Origin: Pelagibacteraceae bacterium AG-319-F18
GTDB taxonomy: Bacteria; Pseudomonadota; Alphaproteobacteria; Pelagibacterales; Pelagibacteraceae
Assembly (NCBI GenBank): GCA_003283905.1
Contig: QBXA01000007.1
Location: forward strand, 1-64,000
Direction: 5' to 3'
DNA length: 64,000 nt
Shown: piece by piece, positions 4,914 to 61,587 of the stretch
Layout of the letters: every line of letters begins with the position of its first letter
Numbering within the stretch: position 1 is the first letter of the stretch
Made by a program: the position numbers and the translations under genes
Notes under the pieces: model-generated
The model's database searches: none
What the model was told of the DNA's origin: nothing
The model's input: the letters and a program-made list of their open reading frames with translations, nothing else

Positions 4914-5786
4914 ATGACAACTAATAAATTAGCAATAATTGGTGGAAGTGGTCTTTATGATGTTGAAGAGTTTAAAGATAGAGAGTTACTTGATCTAAAT
5001 ACTCCATGGGGAAAACCATCAGATCAAATTTTAAAAACAAACTACAATAATAAGGAAGTTTATTTTTTACCAAGACATGGAAGAGGTCATTTTATTTCAC
5101 CATCAAATATAAATTTTAGAGCAAATATTGATGCACTCAAACAATTAGGAGTAACAGATATTGTTTCTGTTTCTGCAGTAGGTTCTTTAAAAGAAGACTT
5201 GTCTCCTGGAAAATTTGTAATTGTAGATCAATTTATTGATAGAACTTTTGCTAGAACAAAAACCTTTTTTGACGAAGAAATAATTGCCCATGTATCTATG
5301 GCTCATCCAACATCGAATGGTTTAATGAATGCATGTGAAGACGCTATAAAGAAATCAAATATAGATTATCAAAGAAATGGTACTTACGTTGTTATGGAAG
5401 GTCCACAATTTTCAACACTAGCTGAATCAAATTTATATAGATCTTGGAAAGCAGATGTAATTGGCATGACTAATATGCCCGAAGCAAAACTCGCAAGAGA
5501 AGCTGAAATTAGATATGCATCCGTATCAATGGTTACAGACTTTGATTGTTGGCATCCTGATCATGAAAATGTTGATGTTCAACAAGTAATTAAAGTTTTG
5601 TTAGGTAATGCTGAAAAAGCAAAAGTAATGATAAAAAATTTAATAGATAATTTTGAAGATCATATAGATCCAAAAGATCCAACTAATAATTGTTTAGATG
5701 TTGCAATAATAACATCTCTCGAAAAAAGAACACAAAAAACAATAGATAAACTTAAAACTGTGGCTGGTAGAGCTCTTAATAAATGA
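4914..5786 (+). CDS. mtnP: S-methyl-5'-thioadenosine phosphorylase
   Basis: LAIIGGSGLYDVEEF, PRHGRGHFISPSNINFRANI, MEGPQFSTLAES, IGMTNMPEAKLAREAEI. Confidence 0.92.
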   Translation: MTTNKLAIIGGSGLYDVEEFKDRELLDLNTPWGKPSDQILKTNYNNKEVYFLPRHGRGHFISPSNINFRANIDALKQLGVTDIVSVSAVGSLKEDLSPGKFVIVDQFIDRTFARTKTFFDEEIIAHVSMAHPTSNGLMNACEDAIKKSNIDYQRNGTYVVMEGPQFSTLAESNLYRSWKADVIGMTNMPEAKLAREAEIRYASVSMVTDFDCWHPDHENVDVQQVIKVLLGNAEKAKVMIKNLIDNFEDHIDPKDPTNNCLDVAIITSLEKRTQKTIDKLKTVAGRALNK

Positions 5787-56912: not shown

Positions 56913-57317
56913 ATGCTTTATTTTGCTTATGGGAGTAATCTTCATCATTTTCAAATGAAAAAAAGGTGCAAAGATAGTGTTTATTTAAAAAAAATAAATC
57001 TAAAAAATTTTAAACTAACTTTTAGAAGCAAATATAGAGCAGCAGACATTGAGCCTAAAAAAAAATCAATTGTTCCAGGTGGGTTATTTGAAATATCAAA
57101 AAGTGATGAAAAAAAATTAGATGTTTATGAGGATTTTCCAATTTTATATAAGAAGTATTATTTTTATTATTATGGAAAAAAAGTAATGACTTACACAATG
57201 GTAAAAAAATCAGTATTTAAATTTCCAACTGAAAGATATTTAAATATTGTAAAAAAAGGATATGAAGATTGTAGTTTAGAGATGAGGATTCTTTTTAAGG
57301 CATTAAAAAATAATTAA
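56913..57317 (+). CDS. gamma-glutamylcyclotransferase/AIG2-like protein
   Basis: MLYFAYGSNLHHFQMKKRC (YGSNL motif), LDVYEDFPILYKKYYF. Confidence 0.85.
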   Translation: MLYFAYGSNLHHFQMKKRCKDSVYLKKINLKNFKLTFRSKYRAADIEPKKKSIVPGGLFEISKSDEKKLDVYEDFPILYKKYYFYYYGKKVMTYTMVKKSVFKFPTERYLNIVKKGYEDCSLEMRILFKALKNN

Positions 57318-57324
57318 AACAAAA

Positions 57325-59223
57325 ATGAATTTTAAATACAGAGCAGAAATTGATGGATTGAGAGCAATAGCAGTAATCTCCATAATTTTTTATCACGCTA
57401 GAATTTTATTACATGGAAAAAACTACTTTTCAGGTGGTTTTCTTGGAATAGATATTTTTTTTGTTATTTCTGGCTATTTAATTGCCTTACTTATCTTAAC
57501 AGATTTAGATTCAAATAATAATTTTTCATTTAAATTATTTTATGAAAAACGTATTAGAAGAATATTTCCTCTTTTATTTATTGTATTAATATTTTCATTA
57601 ATATCTAGCTGGTTTATTCTTATTCCGTCAGATTTATTAAATTTTTCAAAGTCATCAATTTATTCTTTATTGTTTGTATCTAATTATTTTTTTACAATTC
57701 AGGATTATTTTGCTTTTAAATCTTTATTAATACCATTATTGCATACATGGTCTTTGTCTATAGAAATACAATTTTATATAATAATTTCTATTTTAACTTT
57801 TTTTTTATTTAAAAAATTAAAAAAAAAAATTAGTTTAATCTTTCTATTAATACTTATTCTAAGTTTAATAATATCATCTTTATATTCACAAGAAAACTCA
57901 ATAGGCTCATATTATTATATTCAATTTAGAATCTGGGAATTTTTAGCAGGATCACTTTTAGCAATTATCGAAATTAAAGATAAAAAAAGGACAATTTTTG
58001 ATAAAGATATATTTAACGAACTTTTGTTATTAATAGGTATATTTTTAATATTATTATCAATATATTTTTTTAACGATAAAACTCAGCATCCATCCTATGT
58101 AACAATAATTCCTATTTTTGGCACATGTTTAATCATTTGGTTTTCAAGAAAAAATTATTTTGTTACAAAAATTTTATCAAGCAAGCCATTTGTTAGTATA
58201 GGACTTATTTCTTACTCATTATTTCTTTGGCATTATCCAATATTTGCCTTTTATAGATATTCCTATGCCACAGGTAGTATAATCTCAAAATTAATATTTT
58301 TTAGTATTTTAATTATTATCTCTATTGCAAGTTATTTTTTAATTGAAAAACCTTTTAGAAATCAAAAGACTATATCTTTAAATTTTTTAACAAAATTTTT
58401 ATCAATCCTGTTTATATCAATTATTTTTTTAAACTGTTTGGTAATTCAAAATAACGGATTTGACAAAAGGTATAAATTTGGAAAAATAAATTTAGATATG
58501 AATTATTATATAAAAGAATTAAGCAAATTTAGAGAGAATAAACAAAATTTAGATTTTACTTCAGATAAAAAAAAAATTTTACTTCTAGGAGACTCGCATG
58601 GTCGTGATACATATGATGCATTAATTTCCAATCAGAATTTATCTACAAAATTTGAAGTTGTATTTAATAAGGTGGATAATTTAGATTTAATTTTAGATAC
58701 TAAAAATAAAAATTTTCAAAATAAAAATAAATTTTATAAACATCAATTAAATGAAGCAGACATTGTTATTCTTTCTTATTTATGGCCTAAAAAGTTAAAC
58801 AAAGAAAACTCGGAACTATTAAAAATTTTTTCTAATAATTTGAAAAAAAATAATAAAAAATTATTAGTAATTTCTTCTCCAGAATTTGAAATTAAGGGTC
58901 GATTTACCTTATTGGATTTATATATTTTAAAAAACAAAAAATTACCTCAGGGATTAGAAATCTCTGAATTACAAAAAAAATATTATAACTCATACATTTC
59001 TAATAGAAAATTAAAAAATATTAACTTAAAGTTAAACAGTCTTTCGAAATTTAATGATTTTATATTTTTAAATTTAAGTAAATTTCTCTGTGATGAGAAG
59101 ATAAAAACATGTTTTTATTTAACCGATAAACAGGAAAAAATTATGTTTGATGATGACCATTACACTTTAGCAGGTTCTAAATTTTTAGGAAAAAAAATTT
59201 CAACTCTCAATTTATTTAAATAA
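57325..59223 (+). CDS. acyltransferase 3 family with C-terminal SGNH domain (OafA-like surface polysaccharide O-acyltransferase)
   Basis: KYRAEIDGLRAIAVISIIFYHA, GGFLGIDIFFVISGYLIA, HTWSLSIEIQFY; SGNH blocks KKILLLGDSHGRDTYDA and DDDHYTLAGSKFLG. Confidence 0.92.
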   Translation: MNFKYRAEIDGLRAIAVISIIFYHARILLHGKNYFSGGFLGIDIFFVISGYLIALLILTDLDSNNNFSFKLFYEKRIRRIFPLLFIVLIFSLISSWFILIPSDLLNFSKSSIYSLLFVSNYFFTIQDYFAFKSLLIPLLHTWSLSIEIQFYIIISILTFFLFKKLKKKISLIFLLILILSLIISSLYSQENSIGSYYYIQFRIWEFLAGSLLAIIEIKDKKRTIFDKDIFNELLLLIGIFLILLSIYFFNDKTQHPSYVTIIPIFGTCLIIWFSRKNYFVTKILSSKPFVSIGLISYSLFLWHYPIFAFYRYSYATGSIISKLIFFSILIIISIASYFLIEKPFRNQKTISLNFLTKFLSILFISIIFLNCLVIQNNGFDKRYKFGKINLDMNYYIKELSKFRENKQNLDFTSDKKKILLLGDSHGRDTYDALISNQNLSTKFEVVFNKVDNLDLILDTKNKNFQNKNKFYKHQLNEADIVILSYLWPKKLNKENSELLKIFSNNLKKNNKKLLVISSPEFEIKGRFTLLDLYILKNKKLPQGLEISELQKKYYNSYISNRKLKNINLKLNSLSKFNDFIFLNLSKFLCDEKIKTCFYLTDKQEKIMFDDDHYTLAGSKFLGKKISTLNLFK

Positions 59224-59224
59224 A

Positions 59225-59344
59225 ATGACAAAGAAAACAACATTTAAATTTCCAATTGAGAAATATCTTAATATTATTAAACAAGGATATACAGATTTTG
59301 GTTTAGATAAAAAATATCTTCAAAAAGAATTATTAGGCTCTTAA
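59225..59344 (+). pseudogene. displaced 3' fragment of a gamma-glutamylcyclotransferase-like gene
   Basis: 40-codon ORF MTKKTTFKFPIEKYLNIIKQGYTDFGLDKKYLQKELLGS* aligns without gaps to the end of the 56913-57317 product (MVKKSVFKFPTERYLNIVKKGYEDCSLEMRILFKALKNN*). Confidence 0.75.
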
Positions 59345-59410
59345 TTAAAAAAATTTACTTATTACTCTTGTTCAATTATAAATATTAGCATAAATACTCA
59401 TGAAATTCAT

Positions 59411-59454
59411 TAATGCCCTCGTGGTGAAATTGGTAGACACAAAGGACTTAAAAT
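59411..59454 (+). repeat. left copy of 44-bp direct repeat (includes 5' 40 nt of tRNA-Leu)
   Basis: taatgccctcgtggtgaaattggtagacacaaaggacttaaaat, identical to 60723-60766. Confidence 0.95.
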
Positions 59455-59484
59455 ATACTATCAATAAATAATTAAAAACTCTGT

Positions 59485-59504
59485 GTGACCCAGGGTGACC
59501 CAAG
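59485..59504. repeat. tandem 10-bp direct repeat near left end of the putative element
   Basis: GTGACCCAGG GTGACCCAAG. Confidence 0.7.
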
Positions 59505-59553
59505 ACCTACATAATTACTAGAGAATAATTAATGCCTAATTATATCTGTTGTT

Positions 59554-59706
59554 ATGGAACCAAAAACAAATGATACAAAAGTTAGTCACCAGTTATACGA
59601 GGTGCAATTTACAGATAAAGCAATAATCAACCTTAAATGGAATAAGAAGACCGAGAAGAGACATAGGGTTAAAGTAAACATAAAGAATGGACCTAAAGGT
59701 GTTTAA
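59554..59706 (+). CDS. short ORF of unknown function in the tRNA-Leu element
   Basis: MEPKTNDTKVSHQLYEVQFTDKAIINLKWNKKTEKRHRVKVNIKNGPKGV*; below the ORF-track cutoff; GAG/AAG/AGG codons differ from the surrounding A/T-ending usage. Confidence 0.35.
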   Translation: MEPKTNDTKVSHQLYEVQFTDKAIINLKWNKKTEKRHRVKVNIKNGPKGV

Positions 59707-59841
59707 TACAATGGACACCAAGAACTAATAAAAAGGTTTTCTAATTAATATTTAAGTTTAGAGGTAAAACTTTCTATCACAAATGTGAAACCAGAAAATA
59801 TTTTAGTTCATGAAGTTTATTGGTCTTGGGTAAAATAAAAT

Positions 59842-60525
59842 TTATATTTTTAAAGATTTCTTCTTTGTAAAAGTTTTTCTATTACCAAGCTTATCAATAT
59901 CTTTTAAAGAATAATATGTAGCTTTTTTATTATCTTGTTTTTTTGGTTTAATTTTATGTAAATTTTGCATGGTATGTTTAAACAAAACAAAAGCATATTC
60001 CAAAGATTTTTTATAAACATCAATTACTTCCTCATAGTAAGGATAAATCATAAATCTACATTGGTTTAATATTTTTCCATGATCTAAATATTTATCAATC
60101 ATGTGAATAGTTACCCCCTGAAATTCTTCTTTGTTTTTAAGAGCCCAATTAATACTTCTTGTGCCACGATATTTTGGTAATTCAGAAAGATGAATATTTA
60201 ATGCTAGTTTAAATTTTTTTAACTGTTTTTGTGTGATTATTTTTTTATAAAAAACTGAAAATAAAATATCGTATTTAAATTTTTTATTTTTTTTTCTATT
60301 TAGTAAATCATCTATTTTTCCACTCTCAATTATTTTGATTTTATTCCTTTCACATAATCTTTTTATTTTATTTCCTTTCCATTCATTTAAAATTTCCCCT
60401 TCATGAGGAATTACTGGAATATAAGTTACTTGATATGTTTTTTTATTTGAACAGAACCATTTCAGTATATTTAGAGCTAAAGAACCTTTACCACACAAAA
60501 CCACTTTTTTCATAAGATAAATCAA
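59842..60525 (-). CDS. formyltransferase domain protein (methionyl-tRNA/sugar formyltransferase-like)
   Basis: LNIHLSELPKYRGTRSINWALKNKEEFQGVTIHMIDKYLDHGKIL keeps the N-H-D catalytic pattern of N10-formyl-THF formyltransferases. Confidence 0.82.
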   Translation of the reverse strand: MIYLMKKVVLCGKGSLALNILKWFCSNKKTYQVTYIPVIPHEGEILNEWKGNKIKRLCERNKIKIIESGKIDDLLNRKKNKKFKYDILFSVFYKKIITQKQLKKFKLALNIHLSELPKYRGTRSINWALKNKEEFQGVTIHMIDKYLDHGKILNQCRFMIYPYYEEVIDVYKKSLEYAFVLFKHTMQNLHKIKPKKQDNKKATYYSLKDIDKLGNRKTFTKKKSLKI

Positions 60526-60634
60526 TCTATCACAATTACTTCCAAAAGGGTATGACTATGGGACCTTTATGTTATTAAAGTTATATGCCATTAATTTAAT
60601 CTAGCTTGTATGTCATTCGTTTGGGACCTCTCCA

Positions 60635-60656
60635 AGTTAGACACCAGTTAGACACC
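60635..60656. repeat. tandem 11-bp direct repeat near right end of the putative element
   Basis: AGTTAGACACC AGTTAGACACC. Confidence 0.8.
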
Positions 60657-60682
60657 GATAATTCTTGAACAAGATAAATGCA

Positions 60683-60710
60683 TTGTGTTAAAACAAAACA
60701 AAGATATAAC
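60683..60710 (+). promoter_or_regulatory. putative promoter of intact tRNA-Leu
   Basis: TTGTGT (60683-60688), 16 nt, TATAAC (60705-60710), 16 nt to the tRNA. Confidence 0.5.
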
Positions 60711-60722
60711 AATGACTTTTAG

Positions 60723-60766
60723 TAATGCCCTCGTGGTGAAATTGGTAGACACAAAGGACTTAAAAT
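60723..60766 (+). repeat. right copy of 44-bp direct repeat (within intact tRNA-Leu)
   Basis: Identical to 59411-59454. Confidence 0.95.
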
Positions 60767-60812
60767 CCTTGCCGCTTGCGGAGTGCCAGTTCGAGTCTGG
60801 CCGAGGGCACCA
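60727..60812 (+). tRNA. tRNA-Leu (TAA anticodon)
   Basis: gccctcgtggtgaaattggtagacac...aaggacttaaaatcctt...(variable arm)...gttcgagtctggccgagggcacca; CCA encoded. Confidence 0.96.
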
Positions 60813-60816
60813 TTAA

Positions 60817-61587
60817 ATGAGTAAGCTTCAGATAATTTCTGACAAAAATAACAAATCTTCAAAAATTAAGTTTCAATTATTAAAAAAAATAAATTCATCT
60901 AGTTTTAAAAAAGAGAATCTTATTATTGTAATTGGTGGTGATGGATTCATGCTCCAAACCCTTAAAAAGAATAAAAATTCGAAAAAACAATTTTATGGAA
61001 TTAATTCAGGAAACTATGGTTTTTTAATGAACAAATTTTCCTCAAAAAATATCATTAAAAGTTTATCAAAAGCAAATATGGTTTCAATTTCACCTTTAGA
61101 AATGATTGTAAAAAATAAAAATAATCAAATTAAAAAATCTATAGCAATCAATGAAGTATCCGTGCTTAGACAAAGTAGACAGGCTGCATCATTATCTATT
61201 AATCAAGGTTCAAGACAAATTATTAAAAAATTAGTTTCGGACGGTGTATTAGTTTCAACACCAGCTGGCAGTACTGCTTATAATTTATCCGTGCACGGAC
61301 CCATTCTAAGTTTACACTCAAAAAAATTATCTATATCTCCAATTAGTGCGTTTAGACCAAGAAGATGGAAGGGTAAAATTGTTAACGATAAATCAAAAAT
61401 AATTATAACTAATTTAAATCCATCAAAAAGACCAATCAGTGCTGTAGCTGACAATTTAGAAGTAAGAAATGCTAAATCAATTACAGTTAAGATTAATAAT
61501 AAAATTAAGTTTAACCTTCTGTATGATAAAAATAGAAGTTTACAAAAAAAGATAAAAATAGAACAAATAAGAAAAGAAACTAATTAG
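60817..61587 (+). CDS. nadK: NAD kinase
   Basis: LIIVIGGDGFMLQTLK, GINSGNYGFLMN, SDGVLVSTPAGSTAYNLSVHGPIL. Confidence 0.93.
   Translation: MSKLQIISDKNNKSSKIKFQLLKKINSSSFKKENLIIVIGGDGFMLQTLKKNKNSKKQFYGINSGNYGFLMNKFSSKNIIKSLSKANMVSISPLEMIVKNKNNQIKKSIAINEVSVLRQSRQAASLSINQGSRQIIKKLVSDGVLVSTPAGSTAYNLSVHGPILSLHSKKLSISPISAFRPRRWKGKIVNDKSKIIITNLNPSKRPISAVADNLEVRNAKSITVKINNKIKFNLLYDKNRSLQKKIKIEQIRKETN

Follow-up and report, generated by a model that had tools for sequence, protein, structure and literature searches.

The window analysed here is a stretch of 64,000 nucleotides from the Pelagibacteraceae bacterium AG-319-F18, and contains a single, complete tRNA-Leu(TAA) gene (60727-60812, plus strand; predicted with ARAGORN), followed at 60817 by the start of a NAD kinase gene, in an order that is the same in nearly all relatives. 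The 44 nucleotides at 60723-60766 (plus strand), comprising the 5' half of this gene and 4 further nt, are an exact direct repeat of those at 59411-59454 (plus strand), as had been stated in a first-pass annotation, and the alignment of both copies, hereafter the cores, extends to 55 nt with 93% identity. Exact identity stops after GGACTTAAAAT, where the anticodon loop has its 3' edge, and this loop is a usual crossover point of tyrosine integrases. ARAGORN did not call any tRNA for the left copy, at 59414, which confirms that only the right copy belongs to a full tRNA; the left core is an orphan 5' half, and the two are the attL and attR cores, respectively. The genome contains exactly these two copies of the core and no third, while a control sequence did not produce any match. 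An exact half-tRNA repeat of 44 nt adjoining the intact gene is not a product of chance. Nor is it an artefact of assembly, because many relatives, including many single-cell genomes, have the same arrangement at the same locus.

Further upstream, an acyltransferase gene (57325-59223) lies between a full GGCT gene (56913-57317) and an orphan stretch of 39 aa that copies the 3' end of the GGCT-like gene (59225-59344), in what looks like a separate, older insertion. An acyltransferase gene whose product is 44% identical to that of the window is found in the relative G007 (L087, 39-3998) between tRNA-Leu and the NAD kinase gene, downstream of the tRNA, unlike in the other relatives compared.

The working tRNA is a hybrid with a new leader

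We joined the left flank, through position 59454, to the right flank, from 60767, and compared the resulting sequence with relatives containing a single tRNA-Leu. The alignments started at 59343 and ran uninterrupted across the junction, with identities of 86.5% over 348 nt with G024 (L049), 86.8% with L074 and 97% over 167 nt with G019 (L054), revealing the empty site that the annotation had proposed to look for. Since the joined flanks match empty sites, the left core retains the tRNA-Leu leader of the empty-site type (59343-59410, plus strand; aligned without gaps), now separated from the working gene, whereas the leader of the working tRNA is another one and came with the element. The intact gene is, then, a hybrid of a 5' half from the element and a 3' half from the host, in agreement with the earlier proposal that the element supplies the 5' half. 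An identity block ending within a tRNA and an empty site elsewhere are the hallmarks of a tRNA-integrated tyrosine-recombinase element.

The window element retains a broken integrase between paired arms

The segment delimited by the cores spans ca. 1.3 kb (59411-60766, including both). Its left arm (59455-59640, plus strand) carries a GTGACCC tandem with a 10-nt period (59485-59501), and aligns with the left end of a 10.2-kb element from the relative G254, which has the same GACCCA tandem. The segment also contains an integrase pseudogene (59554-59786, plus strand) corresponding to the N-terminal arm-binding domain, which came to light through the IMG/VR protein L011/P0002. It matches the intact, 531-aa integrase of G254 with identities of 64% over 56 aa and 59% over 27 aa (E 7.5e-23), with similarity beginning already at 59536, and it is broken by an in-frame TAA at 59704-59706, at the end of a 50-aa ORF, and truncated near 59786. 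The annotation was therefore mistaken in that no integrase remains, and right in considering the element decayed or non-autonomous, since a broken integrase lies between att arms. With att sites at both sides and no functional integrase, the window element has the structure expected of a cis-mobilizable element (CIME), which would move together with an adjacent autonomous element.

The cargo is a minus-strand gene (59842-60525) for a 227-aa formyltransferase-like protein (PF00551, E 2.4e-19), the best other matches to which, among those listed from the genus genomes searched, do not exceed 42% identity. The right arm (60526-60722, plus strand), which now serves as leader of the working tRNA-Leu and bears AGATATAACAATG, aligns with the right end of the G254 element and also with the DNA preceding the first core copy in G160; additionally, L189 shows nearly the same right end with a different cargo. 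A sigma-70 scan did not list any consensus promoter in this new leader, and promoter-like matches across the region were no commoner than in shuffled sequences. Each arm contains a pair of short sequences, which we designate labels: AGTTAGTCACC/AGTTATACGAG on the left (59580-59600, plus strand) and AGTTAGACACC/AGTTAGACACC, with an 11-nt period, on the right (60635-60656, plus strand), with 90% identity between both pairs over 20 nt. Pairs homologous to the left label occur within the 5' coding region of the integrase gene in G254, L127 and L128.

Partial duplications of tRNA genes are possible in principle, and the locus might be explained by one of them next to unrelated intergenic DNA, with no mobile element involved. 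We give practically no credit to this explanation, which is refuted by the integrase remnant, the paired arms, the empty sites and the existence of alternative cargo at the same point in relatives. These same features sustain the interpretation of the locus as a tyrosine-recombinase element that used tRNA-Leu as attB.

Intact elements occupy the same site in three relatives

Intact elements were found in G160 (8.8 kb), G285 (7.8 kb) and G254 (10.2 kb), in each case between a core and the full tRNA-Leu followed by the NAD kinase gene; in G254, smaller segments bounded by cores adjoin the intact element. All three code for an integrase and for a protein of 759-768 aa, the size of a primase. In G160 and G285, a gene for a small HTH-like protein lies downstream of that for the integrase. 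The element in G160 contains a Phage_integrase domain (PF00589, E 3.2e-10), a primase and a RusA-like resolvase, and that in G254 a gp2.5-like single-stranded DNA-binding protein; we did not recognise any capsid gene among elements of this type, which contain many small ORFs without an assigned family.

Their integrases form a family of 531-551 aa with conserved R350, K380, R475, H498 and Y508, residues expected of a tyrosine recombinase, so that the pseudogene of the window is the trace of an integrase of this type. In a structural model, of low confidence (pLDDT 65), the integrase is similar to XerH and lambda Int, and its N-terminal part shows weaker similarity to arm-binding domains from P4-type integrases. 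A sequence search of PDB with the integrase profile did not retrieve any match. One contig, represented by both L127 and L011, carries a terminal repeat of 127 nt, as expected of a circular molecule. The L011-type integrase was matched in just 5 of the 397 genomes of the order, including the remnant in the window, which indicates that potential helpers are rarely co-resident with the elements lacking an integrase.

The annotation had also related the locus to SAR11 phages, and its suggestion to search pelagiphages for the 44-bp core was fruitful: an identical 5'-half core was found in a phage context in HTVC105P, where it follows the integrase gene, and in most of a set of eleven viral contigs. 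The repeat might then have been left by a temperate phage of the HTVC105P type, since stripped of nearly everything. We nevertheless judge this origin very improbable, because tblastn did not match the 297-aa integrase of HTVC105P to the window or to any of 43 loci from relatives, the remnant belongs with the other integrase family, at the 64% identity given above, and no phage structural gene was recognised in the segment, which holds the formyltransferase ORF and short fragments only. Similarly, neither a related integrase nor structural genes of a pelagiphage prophage of the HTVC019P/Pelagivirus type were found in the window. The parent type of the window element is, instead, one with a different integrase, of 531-551 aa, and no recognised capsid genes.

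The tRNA-Leu locus harbours arrays of cassettes across the genus

Among 218 genomes of the genus (completeness limit of 85%), the core was present in 174, ca. 76 of which contained two to five copies, with the maximum of five in G254. Arrays in relatives consist of two to four cores in tandem, the last one within the full tRNA, and of up to four cassettes in a row. We collected 76 distinct core-to-core segments: 73 small cassettes of 0.8-6.4 kb (median 2.2 kb) and three large elements of 7.8-10.2 kb. All three large elements carry an intact, recognisable integrase of the element family and none of the 73 small cassettes does, with the window being the only one to show a remnant. Most cassettes have in common a conserved right end of ca. 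90 nt, and at their left end AGTC is repeated three times at intervals of ca. 10 nt. The right end was found in 32 of 61 genomes, nearly always directly upstream of a core copy, and its exact motif occurs in at least 120 stretches in the species genome collection; the records listed are all from SAR11 (Pelagibacteraceae, Pelagibacterales or Ca. Pelagibacter), many of them from single cells.

The internal organization of the cassettes is also regular, with 145 of their 154 ORFs of at least 100 aa on the plus strand. Where all ORFs of a cassette are on the plus strand, the median start of the first one is at 218 nt (quartiles 214-244), and a median of 129 nt (121-146) separates the last stop from the next core. 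The cargo includes type II restriction-modification genes, with an EcoRI-type methylase and a GmrSD/HNH protein, as well as type I-like M and S subunits, a Mrr-type nuclease, an autotransporter, a trypsin-like protease, a carbamoyltransferase and an ATP-grasp protein; some large proteins (831 aa, 463 aa) did not match any Pfam or PADLOC family. The alternative cargo sought by the annotation thus occupies the same site in relatives, and the locus is no lone decayed element but one member of a large cassette system. By these comparisons, the tRNA-Leu locus is a genus-wide hotspot, and looks like the standard docking point by which minimal SAR11 genomes gain genes.

Matched label pairs and recent transfer of cassettes

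Most cassettes contain, at both ends, a pair of 8-mers with an 11-nt period whose sequence differs among cassettes. Labels were exactly identical at both ends in 79% of comparisons within a cassette versus 6% between cassettes, a value not reached in any of 10,000 permutations. The labels CCAGCACA, from G160, and CTAGAAAC, from G285, are each shared by an element with an integrase and several cassettes. The left pair, both in the intact elements and in the window remnant, sits at the 5' end of the reading frame of the integrase or close to it. The pairs might represent arm-type sites for the integrase or for an accessory factor.

Two comparisons illustrate the mobility of the cassettes. Those of L059 and L175 are 97.1% identical from core to core, in contrast to 75.6% for the NAD kinase genes, and those of L064 and L206 are 98.2% identical, with 86% for the NAD kinase over a partial stretch of 224 nt. 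Because the identity of the cassettes is far above that of the neighbouring gene, these sequences show recent horizontal transfer of whole cassettes, with boundaries at the cores. The cassettes in L176 (876-3748) and L234 (3838-5682) are mosaic, with a right part of 1.65 kb in common, at 93% identity, and different left sides, pointing to recombination between cassettes.

Ordinary homologous recombination through the repeated tRNA half and the conserved ends could perhaps spread the cassettes by itself, with no site-specific recombinase active today. The right end of ca. 90 nt and the core common to cassettes would provide the required homology, mosaics do occur, and for some of the moves observed this remains a rival explanation. 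As a general explanation we find it unlikely: window-type and standard ends have little in common beyond the core, yet join at the same point of the anticodon loop; elements with ends of this kind contain intact integrases; and the match of labels within a cassette is what would be expected of cognate att arms.

Other recombinases and a viral contig

Two other sources of recombinase were considered and rejected as helpers. The first are resident phage integrases of 420-513 aa, which occur sporadically in relatives and sit elsewhere, several of them beside tRNA-Cys, tRNA-Leu(TAG) or tRNA-Thr; their loci contained no matching arm motifs, and no core except that of tRNA-Leu itself in G039. The genome of the window contains one of 420 aa (C23; L119, 1515-8142) adjoining tRNA-Cys and followed by small ORFs, probably a separate prophage or island. 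The second is a single conserved tyrosine recombinase of ca. 325 aa (in the genome of the window, C9; L126, 2274-3230), present once per genome and the same gene in most relatives, which nothing ties to the tRNA-Leu site. No second strong match of the XerC/XerD kind was found in most genomes of the genus, and this is perhaps its sole recombinase for the resolution of chromosome dimers.

An exact search of IMG/VR with two motifs from the cassette ends did not retrieve any match. The viral contig L006 shows, near its end (4930-5129), a variant of the standard right end with a core, followed by a ATGGGTAAAGC frame; its phoH region has a ca. 72% match to cyanophage phoH genes, and phage transport of a cassette is possible.

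Discussion

We are highly confident, from the evidence above, that the segment 59411-60766 is an integrated non-autonomous cassette, derived from a G254-like ancestor at tRNA-Leu(TAA), and one case of a general SAR11 system. An ancestor similar to the 10.2-kb G254 element would have been integrated by a tyrosine recombinase, through crossover at the anticodon loop, and would have supplied its own 5' half for the tRNA together with a new leader. Internal deletion or replacement would then have reduced the integrase to its arm-binding start, leaving the formyltransferase gene between recognisable att arms. More generally, small cassettes with standardised ends and without integrase would accumulate in rows through successive insertions upstream of one tRNA, moved in trans, probably, by the integrases of rare autonomous elements. 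The window cassette itself may be a fixed relic rather than one still movable, because its left label has drifted from the right one and its cargo is on the minus strand, unlike in 68 of the 73 cassettes. The scarcity of the L011-type integrase among the genomes of the order, the low confidence of the structural model and the lack of a consensus promoter in the new leader also weigh against this general interpretation.

A broader proposal, to which we assign even chances, is that SAR11 bacteria possess an integron-like system based on a tRNA, in which cassettes addressed by their labels are moved in trans by elements with the same label. Each insertion would provide a new leader to the essential tRNA, and the displaced tRNA promoter would drive the new cargo.

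SAR11 are among the most abundant bacteria in the ocean, their genomes are strongly streamlined and their acquisition of genes is poorly known. If uniform cassettes bring restriction-modification systems, enzymes and exported proteins to a fixed docking site, these bacteria would have a concrete route of gene gain that is open to testing. The cassette ends would offer a way to find flexible genes, and the docking site could perhaps serve as a natural tool to insert DNA site-specifically in organisms that are difficult to manipulate. In the open full-text literature, to which our search was confined, we did not find any description of this SAR11 cassette system.

Related arrangements are known in other bacteria and in phages. 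In Dehalococcoides, integrase-less genomic islands at ssrA have been proposed as cis-mobilizable elements (PMC3146451). Like the SAR11 cassettes, they are in tandem and flanked by direct repeats of one RNA gene, and some contain an integration module while others consist of cargo and att sites only (PMC3146451). They differ in using a serine recombinase and the tmRNA gene, versus a tyrosine recombinase, the 5' half of a tRNA, a median size of 2.2 kb and matched label pairs in SAR11. Gene cassettes targeted to tRNAs are also known from the additive flexible genomic islands of Ca. Actinomarinales (PMC7771536) and Ca. Methylopumilus (PMC10872708), streamlined bacteria of marine or fresh waters. 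These are small cassettes added at tRNA genes, with direct repeats of tRNA fragments, and the sections of both reports considered here do not describe conserved ends, label pairs or an integrase-bearing partner element (PMC7771536, PMC10872708). The section considered of the latter report also defines tycheposons, tRNA-linked cargo elements of 4-200 kb with their own tyrosine recombinase from streamlined marine bacteria (PMC10872708); by that definition, most SAR11 cassettes, of 0.8-6.4 kb and without their own recombinase, are different, and the window element, of 1.3 kb and with a broken integrase, is not a tycheposon.

The orphan 5' half, which the annotation had contrasted with the common 3'-half arrangement, is certainly present, although not without precedent: T7-like cyanophages have an attP made of the first half of a tRNA-Leu gene, downstream of the integrase gene (PMC8776855), and a tRNA-Leu fragment was reported in a pelagiphage genome (PMC3861242). 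These are, however, whole phages with a different and shorter integrase, whereas the SAR11 elements do not contain recognised capsid genes. The SAR11 arrays resemble integrons in having a single fixed acceptor site and stacked cassettes that lack an integrase of their own, with most of the cargo facing the same way. Nonetheless, the acceptor in SAR11 is the anticodon loop of a tRNA, cassettes are inserted beside that tRNA, at the far end of the array, and the arrays were not seen to be accompanied by any conserved integrase; the likeness is one of layout, and the junction in the tRNA half argues against an assignment to integron cassettes. In all, while tRNA-targeted cassettes without integrase were already known elsewhere, the 5'-half arrangement in such cassettes, their uniform ends and the label code are new here.
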